Shown here one piece after another: positions 50,749-64,000 of a stretch of 64,000 nt of DNA (its first letter is position 1; the number at the start of each line of letters is the position of its first letter). The notes beneath the pieces were generated by a model, which saw nothing but the letters and a program-made list of their open reading frames with translations, had not been told where the DNA came from and did no database searches. The position numbers and the translations under genes were made by a program. Origin of the DNA: Nocardioides jiangxiensis. GTDB taxonomy: Bacteria > Actinomycetota > Actinomycetes > Propionibacteriales > Nocardioidaceae. The stretch lies in contig NZ_JAUQTA010000002.1 in assembly GCF_030580915.1 (NCBI RefSeq), positions 558,001 through 622,000 of the forward strand, given 5' to 3'.

Positions 50749-50768
50749 TCCGGATCTGCCGATGTCCG
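50749..50768 (-). repeat. Cassette-boundary repeat element, copy 1 (reverse)
   Basis: TCCGGATCTGCCGATGTCCG on this strand, i.e. CGGACATCGGCAGATCCGGA reversed, matches the recurrent element that separates genes to the right. It is the leftmost copy I find, just upstream of the DUF6326 gene. The rest of the 300-bp gap 50648-50948 shows only the terminator listed separately. Confidence 0.6.
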
Positions 50769-50902
50769 GGCACAGTGCTGGGCCCCGGCTACCTGCTGCT
50801 CCGGGCTGGGAAGACACGACTGCGTCGCGGTGTGTGGGCCCTCGTTATGCATCAGATGGCCAAGAGCGGCTCTCGGACATTGGCGCGGTTCCTCTAAATG
50901 CA

Positions 50903-50939
50903 GAACCGCCCCTCAACCGGTCGGGTTCAGGGGCGGTTC
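50903..50939. terminator. Hairpin terminator
   Basis: Perfect 11-bp outer stem GAACCGCCCCT / AGGGGCGGTTC enclosing a second small stem. Placed 10 bp past the 3' end of the secreted-protein gene on the minus strand, so it most likely ends that transcript. Confidence 0.75.
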
Positions 50940-50948
50940 CGTCACGTC

Positions 50949-51473
50949 TCAGGGGTTGAGGACGATGCTGGTGCCGGGGCCAGCGTTGTCGGTGACTCGC
51001 TGCTCGACGTTGCTGGAGTAGTACTCGGCCTTGACGTATGGCGTGTACCTGACGCCCTTCGGGAAGCAGGACCTGGCGAACTTCACGGTGGCGGTGTTTG
51101 CCGAGTAGTCACGGACCGTGGTGGCCTCACACTTGACGTATCCGTTGACGCTGACGCGGGTGTAGGTGTTGCCGGGAGTGTTATTGACCCACACGCGCGG
51201 AGTCTGGTTGGCATTCCAGGTGAACCCCGTCATGCGGTAGTCGGAGCGGAGGTCACGGACCTTGTAGCGGAACGCGACCTTGCCGTCGCTGGTGTGCCAG
51301 TAGTCGACACGAGTCAGGTCTGCGGCGGCCTTCTGGTTGGACGACGGACTGCCCTTGGCGGTCGTGGTGTCGTAGGTTCGGTCGGTCATGTACCCGCTGG
51401 CGGCCTCAGCGCCAGTCGCGGTCATCGTCACCAGCGCCATGGCCATCGCGATGGCTGCGAACGTCTTCGTCAT
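50949..51473 (-). CDS. Small secreted protein of unknown function
   Basis: 174 residues with a clear signal peptide (FAAIAMAMALVTMTATGAEA, cleavage after AEA). The mature part is Thr/Tyr-rich with two cysteines and looks like a beta-sandwich. Start ATG 51473 with GGAGGA 7 nt upstream. Single gene lying between boundary-element copies at 50749 and 51661. I cannot assign a function. Confidence 0.72.
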   Translation of the reverse strand: MTKTFAAIAMAMALVTMTATGAEAASGYMTDRTYDTTTAKGSPSSNQKAAADLTRVDYWHTSDGKVAFRYKVRDLRSDYRMTGFTWNANQTPRVWVNNTPGNTYTRVSVNGYVKCEATTVRDYSANTATVKFARSCFPKGVRYTPYVKAEYYSSNVEQRVTDNAGPGTSIVLNP

Positions 51474-51660
51474 CTGGGTTTCCTCCGATTGGGTAACGCG
51501 GGCTTCCGAGCTGCCGAGCGCAGTCGGGACGGTACCGAGCGGCGCGCCCGGCTGGCCCTCCGTCTCGTAGACGGCCTGCTAGTCGGTGGATGACGCGGGT
51601 TGGCTGAATGTGCTCATGAGAGTGGCGCTGCCTGCGGCGGACGGGATGGTCGTGTTCCAC

Positions 51661-51736
51661 TCCGCGTTCAGCTCGGCACAGCATGCCTGCTCATGCCGCG
51701 TTGAGTTCGGCATAGCGCGCCCGCTCATGCCGCATT
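51661..51736 (-). repeat. Tandem 34-bp boundary repeats (reverse orientation), two full units plus a partial
   Basis: Units 51669-51702 and 51703-51736 are 27/34 identical, with the last 8 bp of a third unit before them. Read on the minus strand each unit starts AAYGCGGCATGAGC and contains an imperfect inverted repeat (CGGCATGAGC against GCTATGCCG, one extra base on one arm) able to fold into a bulged hairpin. They lie between the secreted-protein gene and the 3' end of the recombinase. Confidence 0.7.
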
Positions 51737-51744
51737 GACGCAGG

Positions 51745-52656
51745 TTAGGTGGCCGATGCCATGTAGGCCGCGAGCACGTAGTTCGCATGACGATCGAGGT
51801 TCTTGCGGGCCCGGTCGTACCGCATCGTGGTGCGTGGATCGGCGTGCCTTGCGGCAATCTGCACGTCCCGCAGGTCCACTCCGGCGTCCAGCATCGTCGT
51901 GACGAAGGTGTGGCGGAGCATGTGCGGATGCATCCGTGGCGTCGAGACACCTGCACCCCGTGCCAGGGCACGCAAGCGCCGGGTCGCGCAGGCGCGGTCC
52001 ATGCGATTCCCGGTTCGGCTTCGCAGGATTGGACCTCCGGTTCTGTCACTCACAGCACGCTCAATCGCCCGACCAACCGCCGGCGGCAACGGGACTACGG
52101 CGACCCTGTCGCCCTTTCCCAGAACGCGCAGCACACGGTGTCCGTGGATCTCCTCGAGCGCCTCGATGTTGGCGTTCACCGCCTCCGAGATACGCAACCC
52201 GAGCAGTCCCAGCATCGCGACCAGGGCGAAGTCGTTCGGGTTCGCAGACTCCTTACCGGCGACGAGCATGCCTTCGAATTGAAGATGGTTCAGGCCGAGC
52301 GTCGGCGACTCGGTTGAGACCCTCGGGCGCCGCACATACTCGGCTGGTGAGCGCTCGAGAACGCCATCGATGACACAGGTTCGATAGAAGCCACTGAGGA
52401 CGGAGAGGCGTCGTGAGACGGTAGACGGCTTGTAGCGGGCCACCTCCTGCATCCAGCGGAGGAAGAGCTCGACGTGCGGCCGACATGCGGCAAGGGGCTC
52501 AAGGCCCTGGCGACTGCACCACTCCAAGTAACAGCGGAGGTCCGACTCTGTGTGAGTCCGGGATTGGCCCTTGAACCGGGCGAGGTACGCCGCAATGGCG
52601 ATGCGAAGCGTTGCGCTGGAGAAGTCGCCAGGCTCGACGAGTTGAGCGGAGTTCAT
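51745..52656 (-). CDS. Tyrosine-type site-specific recombinase (XerC/D-like integrase)
   Basis: 303 residues from ATG 52656 (an in-frame GTG at 52671 adds five). N-terminal SAM-like core-binding domain (YLARFKGQSRTHTESDLRCY) and catalytic domain with all ligands: R155 (LGLRISEA), K181 (LGKGDRV), H245-x-x-R248 (HPHMLRHTF), H271 (ARHADPRTT) and nucleophile Y280 (MRYDRARK). The extra hairpin-recognising helix of integron IntI is not visible between the K and HxxR boxes. It is transcribed away from the gene array to its right, with one boundary element just upstream of its start and tandem copies past its 3' end. Confidence 0.88.
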   Translation of the reverse strand: MNSAQLVEPGDFSSATLRIAIAAYLARFKGQSRTHTESDLRCYLEWCSRQGLEPLAACRPHVELFLRWMQEVARYKPSTVSRRLSVLSGFYRTCVIDGVLERSPAEYVRRPRVSTESPTLGLNHLQFEGMLVAGKESANPNDFALVAMLGLLGLRISEAVNANIEALEEIHGHRVLRVLGKGDRVAVVPLPPAVGRAIERAVSDRTGGPILRSRTGNRMDRACATRRLRALARGAGVSTPRMHPHMLRHTFVTTMLDAGVDLRDVQIAARHADPRTTMRYDRARKNLDRHANYVLAAYMASAT

Positions 52657-52688
52657 CTCTCCACTGCGCACTCAAGGAAAATTGCGCG

Positions 52689-52708
52689 TCAACGCGGCAG
52701 ATCCGGCC
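52689..52708 (+). repeat. Cassette-boundary repeat element upstream of the recombinase gene
   Basis: TCAACGCGGCAGATCCGGCC lies about 30 bp upstream of the recombinase start and 13 bp before the end of the next gene. In an integron this is where attI would be. Confidence 0.65.
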
Positions 52709-52720
52709 ACAACCCGTCTG

Positions 52721-53062
52721 TCAATTGATGGGCGTGACCTCAAGCCGGGTGATCTTGAAACCACGCAGCTTGTCAGTGTCATCCGGTGCGACCTCGCAGG
52801 TGAAGTCGACCGCACGGGTGCCCTCTCCGACGGTGACCGACCTACCTGTAACGCGGTAGCGCCCGTCCTTCAGGGCCTCGACCTCGACGTTCTCGGTGCT
52901 GGGCAAGGAGTCTTGGGGGAATCCGGCCTTCTCGGCTACCGGCAAGGAGCACTTCGCCGCGGCCACCCGCGAACGATTCGGTTCGTCCGCTCCACAAGCG
53001 GCCGCACCGAGGGCAGCGAGCGTGATCGCACATGCTGTAGCGCGTCGAGCAATCCTGTTCAT
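52721..53062 (-). CDS. Small lipoprotein of unknown function
   Basis: 113 residues, start ATG 53062. Signal peptide ITLAALGAAAC with lipobox GAAC, then a short mature domain with SRVAAAKCSLPVAEKAGFPQ and a beta-rich end (AVDFTCEVAPDDTDKLRGF). Function unknown. It lies between two boundary elements (52689 and 53109). Confidence 0.65.
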   Translation of the reverse strand: MNRIARRATACAITLAALGAAACGADEPNRSRVAAAKCSLPVAEKAGFPQDSLPSTENVEVEALKDGRYRVTGRSVTVGEGTRAVDFTCEVAPDDTDKLRGFKITRLEVTPIN

Positions 53063-53108
53063 GTCTGCATCGTGCACCAAGCGATGTCCGCGCATGGGCA
53101 GGAGCGAG

Positions 53109-53131
53109 CTAGTTGCGGCATGAGCGGGCGC
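53109..53131 (+). repeat. Cassette-boundary repeat element
   Basis: CTAGTTGCGGCATGAGCGGG at 53109-53128, between two minus-strand genes. Shares the (C/G)CTAGTYGCGGCA core with copies at 55044 and 57874. Confidence 0.65.
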
Positions 53132-53132
53132 A

Positions 53133-53654
53133 TCAACGAGCGCGAAGCGTGACCCGGTCGCCCGTTCGCTGGTGTCCCGATCGCCAGCCTTCGGAGTAGT
53201 TGAGATCGACGCTCCGAACCTCCACGCGCCCGGGCCGATGCGGTGTCACCTCTAGGAGAAGCTGGGTGAGGTGGTCTGCCTTGGCGTTCAACGTGGCGTC
53301 GTGAATCGGCTGGATGTCGCAGGTCTCGCTCGCGGTTGCTTCGCCGGCACTTCCGATGAGGCTGTTTGAGGTCGTCTTGATGCGGCAGGCAACAACCCGG
53401 ACCTCCGCCGCTGCGGTGTTCACCGTGATCTCGGGCCTCGCGTCATGGAGCGTGACCGTCGGCCGGTCGTCCCAACCCTGTGTGAGGGAGAAGTAGAAGG
53501 GTTCGCCGACCTTGCCCAAACGCATGTCTTGCTGCAGGCCCATCGGATAGTCGTCGAACGTCTTCGGGTGCCTCCACGTCCATCCAACCGCGGTAGCAAT
53601 CGCGATCAGGACGAGAACAATGGCGATCCGCGCGAGCCGTGCCCAGGACGTCAT
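53133..53654 (-). CDS. Single-pass membrane protein of unknown function
   Basis: 173 residues from ATG 53654, beginning MTSWARLARIAIVLVLIAIA, one N-terminal membrane span and a large extracytoplasmic domain with two cysteines in VACRIKTT and SETCDIQP. Longer starts up to 53714 are possible but would run into the boundary element near 53712. Family not recognised. Confidence 0.6.
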   Translation of the reverse strand: MTSWARLARIAIVLVLIAIATAVGWTWRHPKTFDDYPMGLQQDMRLGKVGEPFYFSLTQGWDDRPTVTLHDARPEITVNTAAAEVRVVACRIKTTSNSLIGSAGEATASETCDIQPIHDATLNAKADHLTQLLLEVTPHRPGRVEVRSVDLNYSEGWRSGHQRTGDRVTLRAR

Positions 53655-53711
53655 ACCCAGACCGTCCCACGGGAAGGAGGAGCGTGTACGGCGAGCGGTC
53701 GAATTGCATCG

Positions 53712-53732
53712 CATCGCGGCATGTCCGACCGG
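53712..53732 (+). repeat. Cassette-boundary repeat element
   Basis: CATCGCGGCATGTCCGACCG, in the gap between the divergent membrane-protein gene and the sigma-partner gene. Keeps CGCGGCATGT; the right arm is degenerate. Confidence 0.5.
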
Positions 53733-53808
53733 TTTCGATCGGGCTTGTCACGTTCGGCCGGGTCACCGGACATCTCTGGGGTGTAGACCAACTCCGGAAG
53801 GAAGTCCC

Positions 53809-54501
53809 ATGACCAACGAAGAGATCTCCGTCGTCGAGCAGAGCAGCCCTACGTTCGATCGAACGCGACTCGCAGCCGCCTCGCAGGAATTGGCTCGCCA
53901 GATCGCCGTGTCGACCCCCGTGCGACGTCCTCGGCGGCGTCTCGCCGTCGGCATCGCGGCAGCGGCCATCGTCGCGGTCCCCACCGCCGCTGCCGCCACT
54001 GGTTTGCTCGACGGCCTCCGCTCCGGCATCTTTGGCCAGCCGGACAAGAACTCCGAGGACGCGGGCACATCCGAATGGATCAACATCTGCGCGCCGGGCT
54101 ACCCCGCCCTGATCCGCGAGCACAAGCCGGACGGACCTCTCCCGGCGGGGTTCACCTGGGCTCGCGCGACGCAGAAGCAGATCTCGCAGGCAGCGGCCAA
54201 CCCCGAATGCCAGCCAGGCGGACACGGCGCCCAGCAGCAAGAGATCGGAATCGTCGGCTGGTTCGACATGTACGCCACCTGCGCTTGGTACTCCGAAGCG
54301 GCAACCGCGGCCGATGCAGGTGACGCCAAGCGAGTCACGCGCGCGGGCCACGAACTGAAGACACTCGCCAACTCCGAGGTGAACCGCATCACCGACGGCG
54401 GCGGTCTTGTCGAATTCAAGAACCGGATTGCAGACGATGTCCTCGCTGGGGACGTTGCCAAGGCCCGTGACTGGGCCCAGAACTGCGAGCTGATCAAGTG
54501 A
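53809..54501 (+). CDS. Membrane-anchored protein upstream of an ECF sigma factor (possible anti-sigma)
   Basis: 230 residues, start ATG 53809 with GGAAGGAAG upstream. N-terminal cytoplasmic part of about 45 residues with a basic RRPRRRL, one span (AVGIAAAAIVAVPTAAAATG) and an outside domain with several cysteines (ICAPGYPA, PECQPGG, YATCAWY, NCELIK). Placement next to a sigma gene suggests an anti-sigma or co-regulator, but the usual HxxxCxxC anti-sigma motif is absent. Confidence 0.65.
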   Translation: MTNEEISVVEQSSPTFDRTRLAAASQELARQIAVSTPVRRPRRRLAVGIAAAAIVAVPTAAAATGLLDGLRSGIFGQPDKNSEDAGTSEWINICAPGYPALIREHKPDGPLPAGFTWARATQKQISQAAANPECQPGGHGAQQQEIGIVGWFDMYATCAWYSEAATAADAGDAKRVTRAGHELKTLANSEVNRITDGGGLVEFKNRIADDVLAGDVAKARDWAQNCELIK

Positions 54502-54983
54502 CCCCGCAGGAGCGATTCGAGCACCTGGCCGGAACGATCGGAGCTGATGTGCTCGCCTACCTCGCCCGGCGGGTCACCCCACGCGAGGACGCCGCCGATG
54601 TCTATCAGCAGGTCCTCACAATCACCTGGCGGAAACTGCGCGTCGTGCCGACCGATGACCGAGAGGCACTTGCGTGGATGCTCGGGGTCGCGCGGCGTTG
54701 CCTTGCAAACCACCGGAGGGCGGGAACTCGACGCATGGCGCTGGCAGAGCGCCTCCGTACTGAACTCGCCGTCTCCTACACCGAACCCGACGCCGCCACC
54801 GCCCAGCGGGCGGACGAGCTGCTGCGCAGCGTGAGCGACGAGGACCGCGAGCTGCTAACCCTGGTGCACTGGGAGGGGCTGACGATCGCAGAGGCTGGAG
54901 CCGTCCTCGGAGTCTCTCCATCCGCAGCACGGAAGCGGGTAGAGCGCGTCCGGAGAGCCCTGTTGACTCCAGCAGCTGTATGA
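54498..54983 (+). CDS. ECF-type RNA polymerase sigma factor
   Basis: 161 residues, start GTG 54498 overlapping the upstream stop (GTGA). Region 2 runs from LAYLARRVTPREDAADVYQQ through ALAWMLGVARRCLANHRR, region 4 from DEDRELLTLVHWEGLTIAEA through the HTH LGVSPSAARKRVERVR. Group not assigned. Encoded after, not before, its putative membrane partner. Confidence 0.83.
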   Translation: MTPQERFEHLAGTIGADVLAYLARRVTPREDAADVYQQVLTITWRKLRVVPTDDREALAWMLGVARRCLANHRRAGTRRMALAERLRTELAVSYTEPDAATAQRADELLRSVSDEDRELLTLVHWEGLTIAEAGAVLGVSPSAARKRVERVRRALLTPAAV

Positions 54984-55043
54984 CCGGCTACCCGGCGGGC
55001 GCTGAGTCGTCGCACGCGGCCCCGCCGGGAGCCGGTGTCATTT

Positions 55044-55080
55044 CGCCTGAACCGCACTAGTCGCGGCATGTGCGTGCGGA
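55044..55080 (+). repeat. Cassette-boundary repeat element, near full length
   Basis: 37 bp beginning CGCCTGAACCGCACTAGTCG and ending GCATGTGCGTGCGGA. CCGCAC and GTGCGG form inverted ends. With the copies at 57874 and 60600 it defines the full element of about 36 bp. Confidence 0.7.
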
Positions 55081-55108
55081 TTAGATCGGCGGCTGACAGT
55101 CTCGGCGC

Positions 55109-55378
55109 ATGAGGTACTTCAAGCGTCGGTGGGAGGAGTCGCGGGGCGACGCCGACGACGCCTGGGGGCCAAGCTGGTGGTACTTCGAGGTTGACCACGA
55201 CGGCTACCCGTTGCGGCAGGTCGAGGTCTACGACCGGGGACCGACCAAGCGGTACTCGCTCGACGAGCCTGAGGATGCCGACGGACGTCTCGGCACGGTC
55301 CGCCTAGACGATGGCGAGGACTGGACCGTGTGGCGCATTGGCGCCGATGACTTCGAGCGAGTTTGGGCCGACGACTGA
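55109..55378 (+). CDS. Small acidic protein, DUF6881-like
   Basis: 89 residues, start ATG 55109. Trp/Tyr/Asp-rich sequence with WWYFEVDHDGYPLRQVEVYD and ending WTVWRIGADDFERVWADD, resembling DUF6881-type proteins often found as immunity-like genes. Function unproven. Lies alone between the elements at 55044 and 55384. Confidence 0.7.
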   Translation: MRYFKRRWEESRGDADDAWGPSWWYFEVDHDGYPLRQVEVYDRGPTKRYSLDEPEDADGRLGTVRLDDGEDWTVWRIGADDFERVWADD

Positions 55379-55383
55379 CGTAT

Positions 55384-55403
55384 TCGCGGCAGATCAGCGC
55401 GCG
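55384..55403 (+). repeat. Cassette-boundary repeat element overlapping a stop codon
   Basis: TCGCGGCAGATCAGCGCGCG; the stop codon of the converging hydrolase gene (55394-55396 on the minus strand) lies inside it, so the last codons of that gene are provided by the element. Confidence 0.6.
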
Positions 55404-56320
55404 TCCGTCTCACGGAGAACGGGCGGGACTCTGTCGTCGCGAAAGCCGTTGTGGGAATCTGCATTCATGGACGATTCAGCGCTGGGCCCGACAACCCCGA
55501 CGTGCTGCCTCAGGAACGGGACGATGAGCGCGCGGACCGTGTCGGGGTCCTCGAGGGTCACCCAGTGGCCGGCATCCGGAAGCACCACCACCTGCGCGCT
55601 GGGGAACGACTCCCGTTGGAGTGGCGCCTGGCCCACCGGGATGTAGGCGTCGTCTTCGCCCCAGATGACCAATGCGGGGCGATCCAGTCCACGCAAGACA
55701 GCTTGCGGCTCGGCGAGTGTTGCTTCGGAGGTAGCGCGGTAGAACTGCAGGACGGCGTGATTCGTGCCGGGGTCGTCCGTCTGCTGCCAGAGCGCCTGCA
55801 GCGCCGCCGGACCCAGGCGCGGGTTCTGTGCCGAGACGACCTCATGGAAAAGCTCGCGGGTCATGCCCGCCTGGATTGCCTCGCCCACTCCTGGCTGCCG
55901 CCATAGCTTTGCTGCATCGTGCCACTCGTAGTCGAGCAGAACGCCGGTGTTGATCAAGATCGCGCTGGCGAATTGCTCGGGATGGTCAGCAGCCCACCGC
56001 ATGGCCCACCCGCCGCCGAGGTCGTGAGCGACGATGTGCGCGTTGCTGATGCCCAGAGCCTTGAGCGTCGCGTCGATGAACTCCGCATAGCCGGCAACGG
56101 TGTAGTCGAATCCGCTCGGCTTGTCAGCTTCGCCGTAGCCGGGCAGGTCGAATGCCACAGCCCGCGTGAAGGTGCCGACTGGTTCCAGGAAGGGCAACCA
56201 GTCTGCGATGGCGCCCGAGTTGCCGTGGATGAAGACCACGGCCTCGGCGCCGTCGGCGAACCCCGCCTGAGCCACCGGGATGGAGACCCCGTTGATGCTC
56301 AGGCGCGATGCCGTGGTCAA
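55394..56320 (-). CDS. Alpha/beta hydrolase (epoxide hydrolase/haloalkane dehalogenase-like)
   Basis: 308 residues. HGNSG at 32-36, nucleophile D100 in AHDLGGGW (Asp rather than Ser, as in epoxide hydrolases and dehalogenases), acid D223/D224 (GEDDAYIP) and H252 (DAGHWV). The triad is complete. Substrate unknown. The ATG overlaps the stop of the upstream gene by 4 bp. The C-terminal 35 residues look poorly conserved and end inside a repeat element. Confidence 0.83.
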   Translation of the reverse strand: MTTASRLSINGVSIPVAQAGFADGAEAVVFIHGNSGAIADWLPFLEPVGTFTRAVAFDLPGYGEADKPSGFDYTVAGYAEFIDATLKALGISNAHIVAHDLGGGWAMRWAADHPEQFASAILINTGVLLDYEWHDAAKLWRQPGVGEAIQAGMTRELFHEVVSAQNPRLGPAALQALWQQTDDPGTNHAVLQFYRATSEATLAEPQAVLRGLDRPALVIWGEDDAYIPVGQAPLQRESFPSAQVVVLPDAGHWVTLEDPDTVRALIVPFLRQHVGVVGPSAESSMNADSHNGFRDDRVPPVLRETDAR

Positions 56321-57009
56321 GGCGTTCCGACTTCGTCGACGATCCTGAACCGTGTGTAGGAGTCGTAGTCACCCAACGGGTTCGCCCAGTGGTACTCCAT
56401 GTGGGGCTTGTGGAGCCCGGGTTGATAGGCGAACGTCTGCATTGCCTTGACGTCCTCCCAGACCGACAGTGTCATGCCGGCGCTCGGCATCGGGAAGGTC
56501 AGGTTGCGCCAGTATTGGAGTCCGGGGACCGTGTCCAACTTGCTGACCACCTCGTCGATACGGCGCGTGAACTCGATAGCGCGCGACCAGTCGAAGTCGG
56601 CACCCATCTCCCAACCGGCGGTTGTCATGACGACGCATCGCCCCGCGGGACGATGGTGATCGGTGACGGCGAACACTGGCCCGGGCTCCTTCGGGTTGAG
56701 CCACTGGACCGTTCCTCGGTGACGGAATGGCTCTAGCACGGCAGCCCAGTGTGTCCCTGACTCCCAGGATGTCGGCCCCCACGAGTCATGCATGGCGGCG
56801 GTCGCGGATGCCAAGTCCGCGTGGAGCGATATCCGCGCGGCGTGGGTGAACTCTTTCGCTGCTCCGATGCTTGCCATGGGGTCATTCACCCCGACGGCGG
56901 CATACACGTGCGCGGTGACCGGGGGCGCGTCATCGACCTCGTCGATGCTGCGGGGCTGGCCAAAGTGGGCCAGTCGCACCGTCATGTGGGACGCCAGCTC
57001 AGCAGTCAT
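56317..57009 (-). CDS. Protein of unknown function, operonic with alpha/beta hydrolase
   Basis: 230 residues, start ATG 57009. Sequence has DDAPPVTAHVYAAVGVNDPM, TTAGWEMGADFDWSRAIEFT and PMPSAGMTLSVWEDVKAMQT; the last resembles dimeric alpha+beta-barrel (antibiotic monooxygenase-like) domains, but I cannot place the family. ATGA overlap with the hydrolase gene means the two are translated together. Confidence 0.65.
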   Translation of the reverse strand: MTAELASHMTVRLAHFGQPRSIDEVDDAPPVTAHVYAAVGVNDPMASIGAAKEFTHAARISLHADLASATAAMHDSWGPTSWESGTHWAAVLEPFRHRGTVQWLNPKEPGPVFAVTDHHRPAGRCVVMTTAGWEMGADFDWSRAIEFTRRIDEVVSKLDTVPGLQYWRNLTFPMPSAGMTLSVWEDVKAMQTFAYQPGLHKPHMEYHWANPLGDYDSYTRFRIVDEVGTP

Positions 57010-57166
57010 TCAGCGAAGTTAACCGGTCCGCGCGTTTCATGCCATGGCTACCGAAATGTCGCCATGGCCCAAAGACTCGCCTCCCACATCTCGCCCGGGC
57101 CTCGGCGCCGACCGGCGCGTGCTCAAACAACCGGACAGCAGCAGGTCCGACCGGGCCACCTCTACG

Positions 57167-57523
57167 ATGCAGACCGTGACGAGCGTCGTTCCGGCGTGGC
57201 GGAGGCTGCTTCCGCCCTACCCCTTCCGAGCGGAGCGGATGAGGGGCTGTGCGCCAGAGAGGGCAACAGCAGTGGCCTGCTTTGCCGCGGCGTGGCAACT
57301 CCTGCCGGTGTCACTGGCCGTCGTCCTTGTCGTTGACGCCTTCCCGGATCCAGCCGTCCACACCTGGCTCTTCTTCCTTCCCAGCATCTTCCTCAGTAGC
57401 GTCGCGTCCTACGCGATCTACGCGGACCACATCCGCGACAACCCGCTTCGGTTGGCAGGACCGTGGATAGTGCTCAAGCCCGCTGCCTTAGGCCTCCTGA
57501 GCGCGATCGGTGCACGCCGCTGA
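57167..57523 (+). CDS. Small membrane protein of unknown function
   Basis: 118 residues from ATG 57167 (MQTVTSVVPAWRRLLPPYPF). Two hydrophobic segments (FAAAWQLLPVSLAVVLVVDA and WLFFLPSIFLSSVASYAIYA). An in-frame start at 57044 is possible but the extra part looks non-coding. Family unknown. Confidence 0.5.
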   Translation: MQTVTSVVPAWRRLLPPYPFRAERMRGCAPERATAVACFAAAWQLLPVSLAVVLVVDAFPDPAVHTWLFFLPSIFLSSVASYAIYADHIRDNPLRLAGPWIVLKPAALGLLSAIGARR

Positions 57524-57564
57524 ATGCACCCCTATCCCGGCGGAATCTCACGCACCCGACTAAC

Positions 57565-57804
57565 GTGCGTCATGTGGCGCGCTTCTGCCGGACACCGACC
57601 TGGACAACCATCGCCGTGGAGGCGTCGGTCGGCGTCCTCTTCGTGGTGCTCGCAGCACGCAACGCGGTCGCCGAATCCACGAAGACGGAGAGCCTCTTGA
57701 CCTTTGGCCTCGGGGTCACCGGCGGCCTCCTGATTGGCACGGCGCTCGGAATGACGAAGCATCTGCTCGCTGTGCGTCAGCGGACGCTCGTTTCGCGCGG
57801 CTGA
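57565..57804 (+). CDS. Small two-span membrane protein of unknown function
   Basis: 79 residues from GTG 57565 (a second GTG at 57574). Two spans (IAVEASVGVLFVVLAARNAV and LLTFGLGVTGGLLIGTALGM) joined by a short charged loop, basic C-terminus. Weakly supported start; it follows the preceding small gene by 41 bp and may be in the same transcript. Confidence 0.45.
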   Translation: MRHVARFCRTPTWTTIAVEASVGVLFVVLAARNAVAESTKTESLLTFGLGVTGGLLIGTALGMTKHLLAVRQRTLVSRG

Positions 57805-57873
57805 GCGACAATCAGTGGACGCAGAAGCGCTCCGGCGCACCTGACGAGAAGCGGCAAGCAGCCGGCCTCATCT

Positions 57874-57909
57874 CGGCAGAACAGAACTAGTCGCGGCAGA
57901 TGAGTGCGG
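57874..57909 (+). repeat. Cassette-boundary repeat element, full length
   Basis: 36 bp beginning CGGCAGAACAGAACTAGTCG and ending GATGAGTGCGG. Flanking CTCATCT (57867-57873) and AGATGAG (57898-57904) form a perfect 7-bp inverted repeat around it, so the site can fold into a hairpin. Sits just past the 3' end of the lipoprotein gene. Confidence 0.7.
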
Positions 57910-57939
57910 TCCTACGCCACATCGAAGAGCACCTGCCAG

Positions 57940-58920
57940 CTAGGGGCGGCGCCGGACCTCGATGCCGTTCTGGGTCACGACGAGTTGGTACACGACGCCA
58001 TCGTGGACGGCGAAGTGACTGTATTGGTTGGTCCAGTCCGCCGGGGCCCGAGCGACCTTCTCGGCGGAGACGGCCCCGGTGCGCAGGTCGACCTCCAGGA
58101 GGTACAGCGGAATGGTCAGCCGTGCGTCCGACGTGAAGGTGCCGGGCCGCAGGCCCAGGTAAGCAGTCGCGCCGTCGACCGTGACGTCGTTCCGTAGCTC
58201 CACACTGTCGACTCGGGCTGGGCCTGCTGAGTGAACCCGCAGGTGGGTGACCCAGCCATCGCCGGCGATCGAGGCCCGAAGCCCGTCCTGGCCGCCTTGT
58301 CGGAACCGCAGCGGCCCCCAGCCGGTCGGGATGCTGGTGCGGACTTTGGATGCGAGCGAGGCGAACTGCTGGGGGTCGCTGCGGTTGTAGAGCGGAAGCA
58401 AGGCACCTTGCTCGGTCTGGGTCAAGAACGCCGGGTGCCAGGAGACGTGAATTGATCGAGGTCTCCCGTTGAGGAGGCGACCCAGGAGTCCATCGGGCTC
58501 GCGGTCGATCCAGACCGGTTGCCCTTCGCCATCGATGGCCAAGTCACTTGCGAGTTCGTCGACGCCCGGAGTGGCGTGCACGAGGTGCCCGTCGTCGTCG
58601 AAGAGGCAGAGTCGATGCTTGACCGGATCGAGGATCCAGATCCCCTCGTCAGTCACCGCGAGCGCACTCGGTATCAAACGCGGCTGGCCCGGAATGGTCC
58701 GGGCCCCGACCTCGCCCGCTGCATCGCCGAAAGGAACCCGGAACATCAGCGGCCACCTGGCGCCGAACGCGGTCCAGGTGACGTCGACGGAGGCGACGCG
58801 AACATGAGGAGCGCTGGTCGGCGTCGCGTTGTGCGCTGCCCCGTCAGGATGGTTCGCCGCCCTGGAGCAACCGGCCAGCAACAGGGCGAGGACCGCCGGG
58901 ATCACGAGTAGCTGGCGCAT
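57940..58920 (-). CDS. Lipoprotein with propeller-like repeats
   Basis: 326 residues from ATG 58920 (an in-frame GTG at 58932 adds four). Signal peptide LLVIPAVLALLLAGC with lipobox LAGC. The mature part has blade-like strings (SALAVTDEGIWILDPVKHRL, SDLAIDGEGQPVWIDREP, DGWVTHLRVHSAG) suggesting a beta-propeller. Function unknown. It stands alone between elements at 57874 and 59091. Confidence 0.7.
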   Translation of the reverse strand: MRQLLVIPAVLALLLAGCSRAANHPDGAAHNATPTSAPHVRVASVDVTWTAFGARWPLMFRVPFGDAAGEVGARTIPGQPRLIPSALAVTDEGIWILDPVKHRLCLFDDDGHLVHATPGVDELASDLAIDGEGQPVWIDREPDGLLGRLLNGRPRSIHVSWHPAFLTQTEQGALLPLYNRSDPQQFASLASKVRTSIPTGWGPLRFRQGGQDGLRASIAGDGWVTHLRVHSAGPARVDSVELRNDVTVDGATAYLGLRPGTFTSDARLTIPLYLLEVDLRTGAVSAEKVARAPADWTNQYSHFAVHDGVVYQLVVTQNGIEVRRRP

Positions 58921-59090
58921 CCGGTGACCCACTCCAGACGTGCGGAGGCATCCTGCGCGGTGTTCGAGCGGGCATCAGCGTCGGTAGGAACTCTCATTGC
59001 TCGCCACCACCTAGTTCGCCGAGACCTGCTTCCTTGTTCATCCTTGCGCATGCAGCCGGGTTTGTGGGCGCGAGCCGCAGATGCATCTGA

Positions 59091-59110
59091 TCGCGGCAGA
59101 ACCGCACGGA
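59091..59110 (+). repeat. Cassette-boundary repeat element
   Basis: TCGCGGCAGAACCGCACGGA, between the lipoprotein gene and the barstar-like gene; the left-arm motif CGGCAGAACCGCAC is intact. Confidence 0.6.
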
Positions 59111-59158
59111 TCGGGAATGCGCGAGCGCTACGGAGTGAGGTCGACTAGCGTCCGTCGC

Positions 59159-59695
59159 ATGGCAAGTTGGGATCCCGCAGCGGAACTCGAGCATCCGGTC
59201 GACTTCAGGCTGGCGATGAACGGTCCCGTCACGATGTTCTGGCGATGGTCAGTGTTGAGCGAGACGATCGACTGGCTGCGGTTGAACGCCTACCGAGTGG
59301 TGGAGCTGCACGCCGACTCCTGGTCATCGGCAGGTGACATGTTCAACGACGCCGCACGCGCCATGGACTTCCCCGACTACTTCGGTCGGAACCTCGACGC
59401 TTTGAACGACTGCATGAGCGACGTCGCTTCGGGCGACTACGGCTGGGACGTAGAAGCCGATACCGGTCTGGTGATCGTGCTCAAGAGGTTCGATGCGTTT
59501 GCGTCTGTAGATCGCTCTACTGCTCAGAAGTTGCTCGACATCTTCGCGAATCAAGCGCGAAGCGCATTGCTGATCGGCCATCGGATCATCTGCCTTGCCC
59601 AGTCGAACGATCCGAGACTGAGCTTCGATCCCGTGGGGGCTACCCCCGTGACTTGGAATGACCAGGAGCGGCTCGACTCCTCGCGCGGCATGTGA
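59159..59695 (+). CDS. Barstar-like (barnase inhibitor family) protein
   Basis: 178 residues, start ATG 59159. The C-terminal two thirds carry the barstar signature MDFPDYFGRNLDALNDCMSD with the helix used to block RNase active sites, followed by VIVLKRFDAF. An 80-residue N-terminal extension (VTMFWRWSVLSETIDWLRLN) is not part of classical barstar. No barnase-type RNase lies next to it, so it is an orphan inhibitor or immunity protein. Its stop codon lies inside the next repeat element. Confidence 0.75.
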   Translation: MASWDPAAELEHPVDFRLAMNGPVTMFWRWSVLSETIDWLRLNAYRVVELHADSWSSAGDMFNDAARAMDFPDYFGRNLDALNDCMSDVASGDYGWDVEADTGLVIVLKRFDAFASVDRSTAQKLLDIFANQARSALLIGHRIICLAQSNDPRLSFDPVGATPVTWNDQERLDSSRGM

Positions 59696-59721
59696 AGTGC
59701 GAGCGGACCGCGGCATGACCG
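59681..59721 (+). repeat. Doubled cassette-boundary repeat element containing a stop codon
   Basis: CGCGGCATG occurs twice, around 59684 and 59709, separated by about 25 bp. The stop of the barstar-like gene (59693-59695) lies between them, within the element. Confidence 0.55.
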
Positions 59722-59770
59722 ATGACGTCAACTGCTCCCGGAAGAACAACGACTCCATTACGTTCACGGT

Positions 59771-60538
59771 ATGGGCGCTTGGGGACCTGCGATCTTCTCG
59801 GACGACACGGCCTGCGATATTCGCGGGGACTATCGTGAGCTTCTTGAGGATCAGGTTCCGGACGACGAAGCGACACGACGAACTATCGAGGGGTACGCCC
59901 ACCTCGGCGAGGACGAGAAACACGTCCTCTGGCTGGCCCTGGCTGCAGCCCAATCGGGCCTCGGTCGCCTTGACGACGACGTCAAGGCGCGTGCCCTTGA
60001 GGTGATCGACGGCGGACTCGGCCTCGAACTGTGGGAGGAGGCGGGACCCCGCGAACTCGATCAGCGCAAGGCGGTTCTGGCGAAACTCCGCGCTCAACTC
60101 ACGGGGGAGCAGCCAGCCCGCAAGGCGGTCCGTCGCCCGTGGCGCGACATCACCGAACTGGCGGCGGGCGACGTGCTCGCTTTCGAAGCAGCCGGGACGC
60201 TCAGATTGCTTCGCGTACTTCGGATCGATGATCACCGAGTTGGCATTGCGCCAATCGTCGGCTGGCTCGACTGGGCCGGGAGTCAGGTTCCGTCCGAGCG
60301 CCAAATTCGCAAACTTAAGGTCCGAACGCGGGCTCACGACGGCCTTCGCGGCAGGCAGGTGCGAAGCGACACCTATAGAGTCGCCCGCCACCGAAAGAAG
60401 GACCCCGGCTGGGCTGAACTCGGCTTCAAGGTCGTCGCCCACCTGGACCCTCGTCCGGAGGACACGCGCGCCCAGGCATGGAGCTACACCGCGTGGACCG
60501 GCTTCGCGAAGATCCTCGAAAGCAATCGGGGCGCGTAG
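59771..60538 (+). CDS. DUF4259-like protein (possible immunity protein)
   Basis: 255 residues, start ATG 59771. The N-terminus MGAWGPAIFSDDTACDIRGD is the DUF4259 signature; the middle is helical (ALAAAQSGLGRLDDDVKARA) and the C-terminal half is basic and probably beta-rich. DUF4259-type proteins are common as small orphan genes and in immunity-gene clusters. No partner toxin is adjacent. Confidence 0.68.
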   Translation: MGAWGPAIFSDDTACDIRGDYRELLEDQVPDDEATRRTIEGYAHLGEDEKHVLWLALAAAQSGLGRLDDDVKARALEVIDGGLGLELWEEAGPRELDQRKAVLAKLRAQLTGEQPARKAVRRPWRDITELAAGDVLAFEAAGTLRLLRVLRIDDHRVGIAPIVGWLDWAGSQVPSERQIRKLKVRTRAHDGLRGRQVRSDTYRVARHRKKDPGWAELGFKVVAHLDPRPEDTRAQAWSYTAWTGFAKILESNRGA

Positions 60539-60599
60539 ACAAGCGGGCTACCGGAGCGACGATCAAGCGCCGCGCGGCATCGCGGAGACGCCCGCACAT

Positions 60600-60634
60600 C
60601 GGCAGAACCGCACTATCCGCGGCGAATCCGGGCG
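60600..60634 (+). repeat. Cassette-boundary repeat element, full length
   Basis: Begins CGGCAGAACCGCACTATCCG and ends GCGAATCCGGGCG, about 35 bp. CCGCACAT just upstream repeats the terminal motif seen at 63757-63780. Between the DUF4259-like gene and the end of the next gene. Confidence 0.65.
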
Positions 60635-60656
60635 ACTCGGTGCAGGTCGGGTCGGC

Positions 60657-60965
60657 TTAGTGACGGAGCTGTATGCGCCGTGTTCGCAGGGCCTGGGCAA
60701 CTGCCAAGAGGCACAGGACCGAACCAAGTGCGATCAAGAAGATCGACAACTGTGGCAGTGGGGCGAATGCACCGGAGCAGGAGGGGTGCGCCAACTGTGA
60801 CCCGCGTCCAAACACCGCAGGGCCACAATCCACATAGCTGAGCCCACGAGGTTCGACGCCGCTAAGAGGGAGGGAACCGGCAAGTACGCCAGCGATCGCC
60901 AGCACGGCGCCAACGAGAGCCAGGGCAAGAGCGCCCCAGACCGACCTGAGCACACCAATCGTCAT
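60657..60965 (-). CDS. Small two-span membrane protein of unknown function
   Basis: 102 residues from ATG 60965, beginning MTIGVLRSVWGALALALVGA. Two hydrophobic spans with an outside loop containing two cysteines (YVDCGPAVFG, HPSCSGAFAP). Family unknown. Single gene between elements at 60600 and 61021. Confidence 0.55.
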   Translation of the reverse strand: MTIGVLRSVWGALALALVGAVLAIAGVLAGSLPLSGVEPRGLSYVDCGPAVFGRGSQLAHPSCSGAFAPLPQLSIFLIALGSVLCLLAVAQALRTRRIQLRH

Positions 60966-61020
60966 GCGTGCGAGGCTACCGGCAGCCATTCGCTGCGACG
61001 TCCGCTGGCATTGGCCATGC

Positions 61021-61044
61021 GAGCGGATCTCGGCAGATCCGCTC
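61021..61044. repeat. Perfectly palindromic boundary element
   Basis: GAGCGGATCT-CGGC-AGATCCGCTC: a perfect 10-bp inverted repeat around CGGC. The right arm is the same CGGCAGATCCGCTC sequence as the elements at 63529 and 63757. Confidence 0.7.
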
Positions 61045-61060
61045 ACCTTCATGAGCCGCT

Positions 61061-61227
61061 GGATGCCAACTCGCATGCCCACGCCCGCCGAGCAAGACCT
61101 ACTGCGTCCTCCCCCATCGGACCCGAAAGTAGACCTGCCGAGTAGATCTTGAGCAACCTTGCGATTGCTCAATCTTCGTTGCATCTCGACACCGAGTGTC
61201 GAGTTGCACGGAAGATTGGCGACCCTC
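61061..61227. repeat. Structured repeat of about 165 bp, copy 1
   Basis: Near-identical to 63545-63708 in direct orientation. Internal hairpins: TTGAGCAA/TTGCTCAA (perfect, 61149-61172) and CTCGACAC/GTGTCGAG (perfect, further right). No conserved reading frame is shared with copy 2 because of indels, so it is probably non-coding. Confidence 0.7.
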
Positions 61228-61341: not shown

Positions 61342-61725
61342 GTGGGCAAGATCGTGGTGATGCTGGAGCCGACATCGCCTCAAGCGTCATCCGGAGCGGA
61401 CCCGATGGAGGCGCCCGACGGCGCCCGGCTCATCGAGCGACAGCCCGGGCAGAAGCGCTTCAAGATCACGTTCGAGGACGGGCACGTCGAATACCGGACG
61501 TTCCCGACCGGCGGGTACGGCCGGCAGCGAGCCGCCACAGCCCGCCGCCGAACCATTCGAGTCGACGGCGGTGCTGCGACGATCACGACCAACTCCGAGG
61601 GGACGCGGACGCTGCGCTACGTGCACGGTAACTACACGGTCACGAGCGACGCACAGCCGGGCGTGGGCGGACCCTGGGGACCTTCGCCCTGTCGGCTCGG
61701 CGCAGGGCCCGGGTCGCGCCGATGA
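61342..61725 (+). CDS. Hypothetical protein, weakly supported
   Basis: 127 residues from GTG 61342 (ATG at 61360 also possible). The middle (LIERQPGQKRFKITFEDGHV, TLRYVHGNYTVTSDAQP) looks coding; the last 30 residues overlap the end of the converging membrane-protein gene and may be wrong. Family unknown. Confidence 0.4.
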   Translation: MGKIVVMLEPTSPQASSGADPMEAPDGARLIERQPGQKRFKITFEDGHVEYRTFPTGGYGRQRAATARRRTIRVDGGAATITTNSEGTRTLRYVHGNYTVTSDAQPGVGGPWGPSPCRLGAGPGSRR

Positions 61726-62299
61726 GGATCATCCACAGGCCGACCAGCCCGCCCATCGGGAACAGTGCGTCGAACCGGTCGGTGTACGGGATGGTCAGCG
61801 CGGCCAGCGCGAAGCCGACCGCGCCAACTGCGCACAGCGCCGCGGTGACGACGTTCCCGATCGAGCGCCTGAGACCGCCGAGCACGGCCAGCGTGCCGAT
61901 GGCCAGGGCCCAGATCCCGTCGAGCGGCTCGACGAGGTACATCAGGACCGACAGCGCGTTGTTGTGCCCGTCCGCGATCGCGTCGGCATTCAGCGGCTGC
62001 AGCAGGTGGATGGTCGTGCCTACGACCATGACCGAACTGATGAGCGCGACCGCCTTGGTGATGGGCCGCAGGGGCTCCTCGGCCTCTCGGTTCAGGGCCC
62101 ACAGACCGGCCGTCACGAGCACCACCGCGAAGAGCATCACGGCGTGCGCGGGATACCAGGCGGGATCCACGAGCATCTCGTGCAGCTGCTCCGTCTTGGT
62201 GCCGGTGCCGCTGTCACCCGGGTGCATCGGACCGGCGATGTTGAAGGCCACTCCGCCGAGCGCGAGCAGTCCGAACTGGATTCGAGTCGATGTGTTCAT
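61640..62299 (-). CDS. Multi-span membrane protein of unknown function
   Basis: 219 residues, start ATG 62299, with about six membrane spans (IQFGLLALGGVAFNIAG, AVMLFAVVLVTAGLWAL, VALISSVMVVGTTIHLL, VTAALCAVGAVGFALAALTI and others). Divergent from a LuxR-type membrane regulator across 122 bp, which may control it. Confidence 0.72.
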   Translation of the reverse strand: MNTSTRIQFGLLALGGVAFNIAGPMHPGDSGTGTKTEQLHEMLVDPAWYPAHAVMLFAVVLVTAGLWALNREAEEPLRPITKAVALISSVMVVGTTIHLLQPLNADAIADGHNNALSVLMYLVEPLDGIWALAIGTLAVLGGLRRSIGNVVTAALCAVGAVGFALAALTIPYTDRFDALFPMGGLVGLWMILIGATRALRRADRAKVPRVRPRPAVRRS

Positions 62300-62421
62300 A
62301 CCGCAGAGTCCGGCTCGGGACCGCCCCTCCGCGGCGGGGACAACCCTCGAACGGCAGGTTCAGGGGAAACCCTGTACCCGTGTTCCGACCCGATCCCCGG
62401 CCGGAGCGGCAGACTGCTGGC

Positions 62422-63435
62422 ATGCCCGACCAGCAGCCGCGTCACGCCGAAGCGGTCCTGACGCTGCTCGCCCTGTGCGCGACGATCGCGCTCGTGACGC
62501 TGGGTCTGCTGCGCGGTCTGTGGCTCTCCAACCTGCACAACGGGATCTTCGCGGTGACGGCGGGGTTCACCGCGGCACTCCTGCTCTCGCGCCGCCCCGG
62601 CCAGCCGCTCGCGCGGCTGCTTCTGGTGTGGGGCCTGGTCAGCGCCGTCATCTTCGCCGGCCGGCAGGTCGGGCTGGACTCCCGATCGGCCGGCGACGCC
62701 TGGTGGGGGTGGTTCGGGGTCTGGCCGGTGGCGATGGTGATCGGGCTGACGACCTGGATGATCATCGCGCTGCCCGAGGGCAACTTCCTGTCGCCGGCCT
62801 GGCGCCGCATCTGCCATGTCGGCATCGGCCTCACCGTCGTGCTCAGCGCCGTGTCGGCGCTCTGGCCGGTGGAGTACGCCGAGAACGCCGTCCGCACTCC
62901 GTTCCCGTTCACCCTGCCGGGTGGCGCCTTGGCAGCGGACGTGTGGCCGGCGATCTCGGTGCCGGTCTACATCGGCATCCAGGTGGTGTGGCTGCCCGCA
63001 CTGGTCGTCCGGTGGCTCCAGTCCGACGCCGTGGTCCGGCGCCAGCTGATGGTCCTGGTCGCGGTGGTGGCCCTCGGGCTGGTCGCCCTGGCCGTCGGCC
63101 TCGCCGGCTTCCGCACCCCCACACCGGGCCTGCTGGCGCTCGCACCGCTGCCGGCGGTCCTCGGCTGGCTGATCTACCGCTACAGCTTCGCCCACGTCGT
63201 GGAGGTCGAACGCGCCGGCGGCCGCCTCGCCGAGCTGTCCCCACGGGAGAACGACGTGCTCGACCTCATGGCCCAGGGCCTGTCGAACACCGCGATCGCC
63301 GACCGGCTGTGCCTGAGCATCAAGACGGTGGAGCCGGCCATCAGCTCGATCTTCCGGAAGCTCGGGCTCGACGACGACCCCGAGAGCAACCGCCGGGTCA
63401 TGGCCGTGGCCGAGTTCTGGAAACGGCAGGGTTGA
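62422..63435 (+). CDS. Membrane-anchored LuxR-type transcriptional regulator
   Basis: 337 residues, start ATG 62422. Several N-terminal membrane spans (from ALCATIALVTLGLLRGLWL to LVALAVGLAGFRTPTPGLLA) lead to a C-terminal LuxR HTH at about 272-316 (LSPRENDVLDLMAQGLSNTA, then IKTVEPAISSIFRKLGL). A membrane-embedded sensor coupled directly to a DNA-binding domain, probably acting on the divergent membrane-protein gene. Confidence 0.78.
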   Translation: MPDQQPRHAEAVLTLLALCATIALVTLGLLRGLWLSNLHNGIFAVTAGFTAALLLSRRPGQPLARLLLVWGLVSAVIFAGRQVGLDSRSAGDAWWGWFGVWPVAMVIGLTTWMIIALPEGNFLSPAWRRICHVGIGLTVVLSAVSALWPVEYAENAVRTPFPFTLPGGALAADVWPAISVPVYIGIQVVWLPALVVRWLQSDAVVRRQLMVLVAVVALGLVALAVGLAGFRTPTPGLLALAPLPAVLGWLIYRYSFAHVVEVERAGGRLAELSPRENDVLDLMAQGLSNTAIADRLCLSIKTVEPAISSIFRKLGLDDDPESNRRVMAVAEFWKRQG

Positions 63436-63528
63436 GGCACCCGATCGCTGCGGCCGGCACCTGTTCGCGCCCGTCTACCTTCTCCGGGGCCGGAGCGACG
63501 TGCCCTGATCCGGGTCGTTCAGCGACCT

Positions 63529-63546
63529 GAACGGATCTGCCGATGG
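63529..63546 (-). repeat. Cassette-boundary repeat element (reverse)
   Basis: GAACGGATCTGCCGATGG, directly before structured-repeat copy 2, just as the palindromic element at 61021 precedes copy 1. The gap 63436-63802 otherwise holds only that copy and the element at 63757. Confidence 0.6.
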
Positions 63547-63708
63547 ATGCCAACGTCGCATGCCCACGCCCGCCGAGCAAGACCGACTGCGTCCTCCCCA
63601 TCGGACCCGAAAGTAGACCTGCCGAGTAGATCTTGAGCAACCTTGCGATTGCTCAATCTTCGTTGCATCTCGACACCTGTCGATTTGCACTGAGAATTGA
63701 CGGCTCTC
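63545..63708. repeat. Structured repeat of about 165 bp, copy 2
   Basis: Direct repeat of 61061-61227. TTGAGCAA/TTGCTCAA hairpin at 63633-63656; the second hairpin is shortened to TCGACA/TGTCGA but still pairs, which suggests selection on structure. Confidence 0.7.
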
Positions 63709-63756
63709 CCGCGGCGAACTTTCACGACTTGGGAGGCAATACGTCACCTGCTCAAT

Positions 63757-63780
63757 GTGAGCGGATCTGCCGATGTGCGG
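63757..63780 (-). repeat. Cassette-boundary repeat element (reverse)
   Basis: GTGAGCGGATCTGCCGATGT followed by GCGG. Together with 63529 it brackets structured-repeat copy 2. Confidence 0.65.
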
Positions 63781-63802
63781 TCGGATGCAGCAGCACTCGT
63801 TA

Positions 63803-64000
63803 CTACGTGACGACCGCGTACCTGGCGCGCAGATCATCGACCTTCTGTCTGCCCTGATTGCTACCGATTGACCACCAGGAGAGGTCGTCGGACCCGGCAC
63901 GGAACTTGCTATCCGGAGCACACACCAACGCCAGCTCCAGGTCCGGGTCCTGAGCCAGCCACCAGCTGGCCGATGCATCCCAGAGCATCAGGCGCCCGAC
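63803..64000 (-). CDS. Protein of unknown function, N-terminus beyond window
   Basis: The last 65 or so residues of a minus-strand gene are visible, including LMLWDASASWWLAQDPDLEL, APDSKFRAGSDDLSWW and the end QKVDDLRARYAVVT. Not recognised. It ends 22 bp after a boundary element, in line with the other genes of this region. Confidence 0.5.
   Translation of the reverse strand, partial: VGRLMLWDASASWWLAQDPDLELALVCAPDSKFRAGSDDLSWWSIGSNQGRQKVDDLRARYAVVT

Follow-up and report, generated by a model that had tools for sequence, protein, structure and literature searches.

We analyzed a 64,000-nucleotide stretch of the 3.0-Mb genome of Nocardioides jiangxiensis (G000:C2:558001-622000; henceforth the window, with a guanine-cytosine (GC) content of 69%), in which a tyrosine recombinase gene adjoins a candidate array of gene cassettes, i.e., short genes bounded by copies of a short repeated site, the core. 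The short-gene stretch is located between pgk/secG/rbpA and pgi, and its short genes have a third-position GC content below that of the neighboring genes. Here, rbpA and pgi are 16.7 kb apart, compared with 0.8–4.6 kb in seven of eight relatives that were hand-chosen among the PGK matches from 59 same-genus genomes (pgi was found in seven), and none of the eight has a core of at least 12 bits at this locus. Gene order at the locus is hence not invariant; it is an invariant order that an earlier note on this DNA, which had suggested an integron-like array, had named as speaking against its reading.

The repeated unit is a core of ~26–28 bp, in which inverted arms of ~10 bp flank a near-fixed 6-bp center, GCGGCA or TCGGCA. 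We trained a 16-bp half-site model on 45 boxes upstream of recombinase relatives in other genomes and collected with it, at a threshold of at least 15 bits on the strand antisense to the recombinase, 281 foreign cores, the left side of which was inspected afterwards. From these cores, picked by their right half alone, a left arm emerges (C-10 G-9 C-8, C-6, G/T-5). It mirrors the right arm, with a column correlation that is r = 0.81 in register and does not exceed 0.38 when the arms are shifted by 1–4, and the columns from −34 to −11 hold at most 0.12 bits each. The column counts (45 boxes to +19; 281 cores back to −34) yield the conserved pattern CGCnCK..GCGGCA..KRWSMGKRCG. With a conserved mirror-image left arm around a 6-bp center, the core reads as arm-6-arm, which, to judge from its sequence, is the architecture of double-stranded Xer/dif sites. 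A 26-bp core model was then trained on the 281 cores of other genomes. Some sites have a double form of two overlapping cores 20 bp apart (TCGGCA-N14-GCGGCA), found in the window at 57873/57893 and 60599/60619. The novel full form of 36 bp described in the earlier note is no element of its own, it consists of two such overlapping dif-like cores, and both consensus cores quoted there belong to one site.

In the window, CGGCAGAWCCGC with at most one mismatch occurs 12 times, whereas 2.6 matches are expected and none of 100 shuffles reached 12. Ten of the 12 lie at 50.7–63.8 kb, and two of these, at 57579 and 60071, had been absent from the earlier list of copies. A repeated element at gene boundaries is thus borne out for this first consensus core; the second one, CTAGTCGCGGCA with at most two mismatches, is not enriched in the window (11 matches vs 10.2 expected). 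The earlier list has 14 positions, one of them tandem, and hence 15 copies. We scored their surroundings with the 26-bp model, for which 300 random 105-bp stretches of the window gave a maximum of 10.9 bits and a 99th percentile of 5.1. Eleven copies exceeded the random maximum, three (52689, 53712, and 59681) scored between the 99th percentile and this maximum, and the copy at 63529 fell short of both with 4.4 bits. The list is hence accurate at nearly all positions. Every core of at least 10 bits from 53115 to 61030 points to the right, as does the weak core at 52694. Leftward cores are found at 50762, 51699, 51733, 63773, and 64392, the latter past the window end, together with a weak one at 63543, and a weak half-site match at 57288 inside the array also points left. 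Most window cores are intergenic by simple gene calls; those at 50762, 53716, and 59685 touch the ends of open reading frames (ORFs), and the last one overlaps the cassette 7 gene at its end. One weak match, at 56897, is situated within an ORF. Gene calls were made with a simple codon model, by which starts and some small genes are uncertain, e.g., at 57.0–57.8 kb and 60.6–61.3 kb. Cores also occur in tandem at spacings of 34 or 29 bp, both in the window (51684-51743) and elsewhere (Pimelobacter simplex locus L038, 19217-19275; G129:C4:28605-28768; G159:C1:2918990-2919152); such runs are apparently minimal units without genes.

The cores cluster at this locus. A 52-position model was built, free of window sequence, from 25 double sites of 10 foreign loci (Pimelobacter, Kribbella, Terrabacter, Actinotalea, Jatrophihabitans, two Nocardioides, and three same-genus genomes). 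When the whole genome was scanned with it, scoring 150 of 7199 first-look candidates, the top four matches (E 1.7e-6 to 0.008) and five of the top six lay at C2:611-619 kb, the best being the double core after cassette 8 (Table 1); C2 609.7–622.4 kb held eight of the 62 matches at E ≤ 10. With the 26-bp model, 12 places within 120 kb around the array scored at least 15 bits, ten of them at 50–65 kb, and the reversed sequence gave none. The copies hence cluster at the recombinase, as had been anticipated, and the even genome-wide scatter of an ordinary repeat was not seen: the top matches of the 52-position model concentrate in one 13-kb array. The half-site GCGGCAKRWNMGKR was rejected as a genome-wide marker as too short (17 matches vs 23 of the reversed pattern in G000), and its counts in 149 family genomes were, by eye, not distinct from the reversed pattern, some lying above and many below.

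Table 1. Recombinase gene, cores, and cassettes of the array in window coordinates.
Feature	Position	Strand	Evidence
Core, left flank, TCGGCA center	50747..50772	-	19.1 bits
Core, second of 34-bp tandem pair	51684..51709	-	18.3 bits
Core, immediately past recombinase stop, one of 34-bp tandem pair	51718..51743	-	15.5 bits
Tyrosine recombinase, 308 residues as called, GTG 52671	51745..52671	-	PF00589, 81 bits
Core upstream of recombinase start (attI-like position), GCGGCAGATCCGG	52684..52709	+	15.8 bits half-site, 7.6 bits 26-bp model
Cassette 1 gene, 124 residues	52721..53095	-	no Pfam match
Core, cassettes 1/2	53105..53130	+	24.2 bits
Cassette 2 gene, 193 residues	53133..53714	-	no Pfam match
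Weak core, cassettes 2/3	53706..53731	+	9.2 bits 26-bp model, 12.0 bits half-site
Cassette 3: ORF of at most 265 residues (start uncertain; 53809 would clear core) and extracytoplasmic function-type sigma factor (54498-54983)	53704..54983	+	sigma factor: Sigma70_r4_2, 40.6 bits
Core, cassettes 3/4	55053..55078	+	26.4 bits
Cassette 4: single DUF6881 gene	55109..55378	+	Pfam match
Core, cassettes 4/5	55376..55401	+	19.2 bits
Cassette 5: alpha/beta hydrolase (55394-56320, -), 230-residue ORF (56317-57009, -), possibly more	55394..57804		hydrolase: Abhydrolase_1, 106 bits
Double core (TCGGCA 57873, GCGGCA 57893), cassettes 5/6	57863..57908	+	25.8 bits at 57893; foreign 52-position model E=3e-4 genome-wide
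Cassette 6 gene, 330 residues	57940..58932	-	no Pfam match
Core, cassettes 6/7	59083..59108	+	18.0 bits
Cassette 7: Barstar-like gene	59117..59695	+	Barstar, 62.3 bits
Two weak cores (59685, 59710), cassettes 7/8	59675..59725	+	10.1 bits at 59710; foreign 52-position model E=0.008
Cassette 8: 255-residue gene	59771..60538	+	weak DUF4259 similarity, below cut-off
Double core (TCGGCA 60599, GCGGCG 60619), after cassette 8	60589..60634	+	18.8 and 13.1 bits; foreign 52-position model E=1.7e-6
TCGGCA core, last of rightward series	61020..61045	+	12.9 bits
Weak core	63528..63553	-	4.4 bits 26-bp model, 11.6 bits half-site
Core	63758..63783	-	13.2 bits

Cores accompany relatives of the recombinase in other genomes. 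Among 81 loci with 300 to 840 upstream bases, the window included, an outward GCGGCA box is present 0–180 nt upstream of the recombinase gene in 46, compared with 14 at 300–480 nt and 11 on the other strand. In the printed loci of Micromonospora/Actinoplanes type, ~45 nt preceding the GCGGCA box are conserved and divergence sets in directly after the box, which suggests a fixed platform followed by a variable first cassette. Moreover, the cores have a strong orientation bias. Around 76 of 80 recombinase loci (all except L090-L093), 270 cores of at least 14 bits, training boxes excluded, are antisense to the recombinase and 24 sense; the reversed control has 20 in total, both strands counted. 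Upstream and downstream of the gene, antisense cores are about equally frequent (139 and 130, respectively), and they become rarer with distance; successive ones are spaced by a median of 948 bp (quartiles 455 and 1920; 280 spacings below 6 kb). At least four cores, here counting training boxes, are found in 42 of the 76 loci and in none of the controls. With the 26-bp model, 69 loci with full matches and sufficient flanks were evaluated, a count that is partly circular as the model was trained partly on the same loci. A core lies just upstream of the recombinase in 43 loci (reversed control 1) and just downstream in 26 (control 0). Both are present in 15 loci, where they delimit a recombinase unit of 974–1117 bp. 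The outer centers of this unit are GCGGCA in 40/43 upstream and TCGGCA in 23/26 downstream cores.

We compared homologous segments between different loci, i.e., 127 segments of 120–4000 bp with the recombinase excluded. Within 20 bp of a core lie 48 of the 508 segment ends, compared with a mean of 7.3 and a maximum of 20 in 100 trials with shifted cores. At least two ends at cores are found in 16 segments (shifted mean 0.2, maximum 2), and for the five segments of at least 90% identity 14 of 20 ends are at cores. The majority of shared segments thus terminate elsewhere, yet ends at cores are in large excess, above all among the most recent segments. In a list confined to segments with at least two ends near a core, segments with three or four ends at most 45 bp from a core are common to L024/L031, L053/L057, and L120/L125.

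Individual comparisons agree with this count. Nocardioides lacusdianchii (L022) and N. glacieisoli (L023) are 97.9% identical over 3957 bp of the recombinase region; a 660-bp unit and a 34-bp mini-unit are present in L023 alone, ~3.6 kb with further internal cores in L022 alone, and these differences both start and finish at GCGGCA cores. G093 and Nocardioides sp. T2.26MG-1 (L027) have a 2.0-kb unit in common (98.8% identity), with homology beginning at CTCAACGCGGCAGATCC and ending at GGAATTCGGCATG. Beyond it, G093 (40 kb) and L027 (21 kb) share just the recombinase (77%) and 25 bp; they are different genomes, because G093 has a single recombinase match. The same unit, ending at cores, is also present in L074, and its downstream neighbor differs in each of the three, being the recombinase unit in L074. 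A lone DUF6881 cassette occurs in two genera: the one here lies at 55063-55386, and its counterpart in Pimelobacter simplex (L038), with 60% identity, is bounded by cores 13876 and 13537. Relatives thus differ by whole element-to-element segments, which the earlier note had looked for as support. Taken with the shifted-core control, these core-to-core indels and shared units point to an exchange of cassettes.

By alignment, the recombinase belongs to a conserved, mainly actinobacterial family. It is 65–86% identical to 29 chosen aligned relatives, and R160, K186, H250, R253, H276, and Y285, which we take to be its catalytic residues, are invariant in all 30 aligned recombinases. ATG 52656 is the likelier start, since many relatives begin with MNTAQ. 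By record title the relatives come from Nocardioides, Kribbella, Micromonospora, Actinoplanes, Propioniciclava, Terrabacter, Ornithinimicrobium, and other genera. One record (L021), titled Acidobacteria bacterium isolate ATN4, is 95.5% identical over 2.3 kb to Ornithinimicrobium tianjinense (L018), and its contig is probably mis-binned actinobacterial DNA. The closest of seven other Phage_integrase-family genes in the same genome is ~30% identical to the recombinase. Its distribution is patchy, i.e., only seven of the 59 same-genus genomes, including that of the window, have a relative at E ≤ 1e-70. These seven carriers have 15–49 core matches at E ≤ 1, and the other 52 have 3–36 (stricter filters, 125 candidates scored per genome). 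The direction is as expected, and the separation is not clean because recombinase-less clusters exist. Recombinase-less arrays are known for integrons. In the window genome, three leftward cores of at least 13 bits lie at G000:C2:649.9-652.4 kb (L004), ~28–30 kb to the right of the window end; none of the PF00589 matches of the genome falls there, and for this reason we call this cluster a recombinase-less array. Further core clusters are located at G181:C1:550.7-556.5 kb, G029:C1:3190-3195 kb, G191:C1:2811-2818 kb, and G164:C1:870-875 kb, and none of these four same-genus genomes has a recombinase match at E ≤ 1e-70.

The best description of the locus is a cassette system of Actinobacteria that has its own recombinase and is widespread, though patchy in its distribution. 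Very probably, in this system a dedicated Xer-like tyrosine recombinase acts on directly repeated, double-stranded cores of ~28 bp. The enzyme, encoded in or beside the array, would recombine two directly oriented cores by conservative tyrosine recombination. It would bind the two inverted arms, and crossover would occur within the 6-bp center, the asymmetry of which would keep the cores in a single direction. A segment bounded by two cores, in many cases with one or two small genes, would leave as a circle carrying one core, and the circle would re-enter at another core. By such excision and integration arrays would gain, lose, and exchange cassettes, the genes of which are presumably expressed. 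Frequently, a GCGGCA core is followed by a cassette and a TCGGCA core; either a 14-nt linker or the ~1-kb recombinase unit then leads to another GCGGCA core, after which the next cassette begins. As either 14 nt or the recombinase unit can serve as linker, this order suggests that the recombinase unit occupies the linker slot and can itself move. In Micromonospora sp. MP36 (L065), two recombinase copies and the fragment of a third lie within 8 kb (at 4.7, 6.6, and 11.1 kb); each copy has a core in the same place, which fits a mobile recombinase unit.

Several observations weigh against this proposal. Core orientation changes twice within the window, cassette genes lie in both directions, and the 26-bp model gives a low score to the core next to the recombinase start. 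At the other loci, no upstream core was found in 26/69 and no downstream core in 43/69. An upstream TCGGCA box (at most one mismatch) at 20-bp spacing is present in just 16/281 cores, so the linker order is not general; 20 bp is the commonest distance of this box among 8 to 35, none exceeding these 16 cores. The short half-site is unenriched genome-wide, with 5/17 matches within the array. Also, core clusters occur in genomes that have no close recombinase copy; just 7/59 same-genus genomes carry one. The dependence of the cores on the recombinase is therefore one of association, and it is by this association that we infer the enzyme to perform the core recombination.

An ageing array, i.e., cassettes that were formerly mobile and are now fixed in this strain, would be compatible with the proposed cassette system and has a limited, though not negligible, chance of being true. 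The orientation flips and several weak cores in the window agree with it, and so does the departure of the recombinase from the family consensus, e.g., RISEAVN vs RIFEATG in most relatives. However, the ORF is intact and all six invariant residues are present.

We consider it unlikely that small integrative islands accumulated here, i.e., that an integrase of phage type or from an integrative and mobilizable element inserted repeatedly at one attachment site and left the cores as attL/attR remnants. Tandem insertions at a single site would likewise yield direct core repeats, and the closest phage proteins are indeed integrases of Arthrobacter and Gordonia phages. Among 111 phage integrase records, 110 are less than 60% identical to the recombinase and one is at 60–80%; the best of the matches listed has 46.9% identity. 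These closest viral relatives are, however, phage enzymes, and they were compared by protein alone. Moreover, the units are small, as seen from the median core spacing, and the 2.0-kb unit occurs beside different neighbors. The 19 window ORFs scanned with Pfam gave zero matches to integrase or transfer families (the recombinase was scanned separately). Plasmids (PLSDB) and viral contigs (IMG/VR) contain nothing close to the recombinase, with two distant and two weak matches, respectively.

A divergent true integron, i.e., IntI acting on attC sites, is very improbable. As in integrons, a tyrosine recombinase of the system's own adjoins an array whose cassettes comprise one or two mostly unknown genes and a special site adjoins the recombinase (46/81 loci; 43/69 with the full model), recombinase-less clusters exist elsewhere, and units are common to several genomes. 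The recombinase also points away from the cassette array with a boundary site at its 5' side, and the consensus of the 25 double sites is palindromic, with 63.3% of cells pairing in register vs 34–42% when slid by 1–3 columns. In contrast, the recombinase fails the IntI models (TIGR02249, 46.9 bits vs a cut-off of 265; NF011946, 40.6 vs 435), as the earlier note had supposed. TIGR02249 matches it over residues 224–289 alone, and in a check for the IntI-specific insertion, for which the predicted recombinase structure was poor (mean pLDDT, i.e., predicted local distance difference test, of 67.6), IntI4 (2a3v) and TIGR02249 align with it over residues 223–301 alone. In attC it is the folded structure that is conserved. 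The double sites, 11 of which come from one locus, show no arm covariation: 63.3% of cells are paired vs 65.7% in shuffles, and all five measures are below the shuffled mean. Also, no RYYYAAC/GTTRRRY boxes are evident in the column counts of the cores, in which they were not searched for as patterns. The sites are hence unlike attC, as had been stated before, i.e., short dif-like cores with a near-fixed 6-bp center. We dropped an attC-like folded site, which the palindromic consensus had suggested, and prefer two overlapping dif-like cores because arm pairing within sites is no better than shuffled. Of the integron-like layout, the recombinase beside core-bounded cassettes stands; it is not exactly that of an integron, because the recombinase gene at other loci has cores both upstream and downstream. 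Gene orientation is also mixed. With both the IntI test and the attC tests failing, membership in the integrons was rejected.

Repetitive extragenic palindromic or miniature inverted-repeat transposable elements, or regulator binding sites, unrelated to the recombinase are hardly credible: the dyad symmetry, tandem units of 29 and 34 bp, a location that is for the most part intergenic, and a half-site unenriched genome-wide would suit them, but they predict neither the clustering, the orientation bias in 76 loci, nor the homology breaks at cores, and the eight relatives have no core of at least 12 bits at the same locus.

The proposed cassette system resembles Xer/dif in its arm-6-arm sites and in a recombinase that is nearest to the XerD/XerC models and the XerD structure. 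It differs by the many sites in place of one and by a recombinase score of ~115 bits, far below the cut-offs of 330. Also comparable are the dif (pdif) modules of Acinetobacter plasmids. According to the available part of their description (PMC13141974), these are modules of one or a few genes, with toxin-antitoxin pairs among them, which shuffle between replicons. Their sites are given there as two recombinase-binding arms around a 6-bp spacer, which compares with the dyad found here. In the same part of PMC13141974, however, the dif modules have variable spacers, alternate in orientation and are assumed to use the host XerC/XerD. Here, the center is nearly fixed, the cores are mostly direct repeats (270 antisense vs 24 sense), and a dedicated recombinase lies within the array. 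Also, dif modules are on plasmids, and the cores here are on actinobacterial chromosomal contigs as far as seen. As orientation, spacer, and recombinase differ, we rejected the dif-module system in the form described in this part of PMC13141974.

Integrons drive much of the gene exchange of Proteobacteria. In Actinobacteria complete integrons are reportedly very rare, and a 2022 survey, in its available part, has none complete (PMC9024848). If the proposed cassette system is real, Actinobacteria would own a separate cassette economy, and the cores would enclose a stock of small unannotated genes that could be mined with the 26-bp model. It would then become testable whether integron-like behavior requires single-stranded folded sites. 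In the literature searched, the scope of which did not extend to preprints and most subscription papers, we recognized no published description of such a system. Tentatively, and with slightly more doubt than confidence, we suggest a third, independently evolved cassette class, an "actinobacterial integron". One nearly universal 6-bp crossover would allow any cassette to fit any array across genera, and the recombinase gene would be a movable unit between TCGGCA and GCGGCA cores, by which the platform relocates within and between arrays.

In the window, a LuxR-type regulator gene (62290-63435) and a 219-residue ORF with native-like codon usage share a segment that is flanked by a direct repeat of ~156 bp at 61055-61209 and 63539-63690, the two copies of which are 95% identical. 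Neither gene was found at the same locus in the eight relatives.

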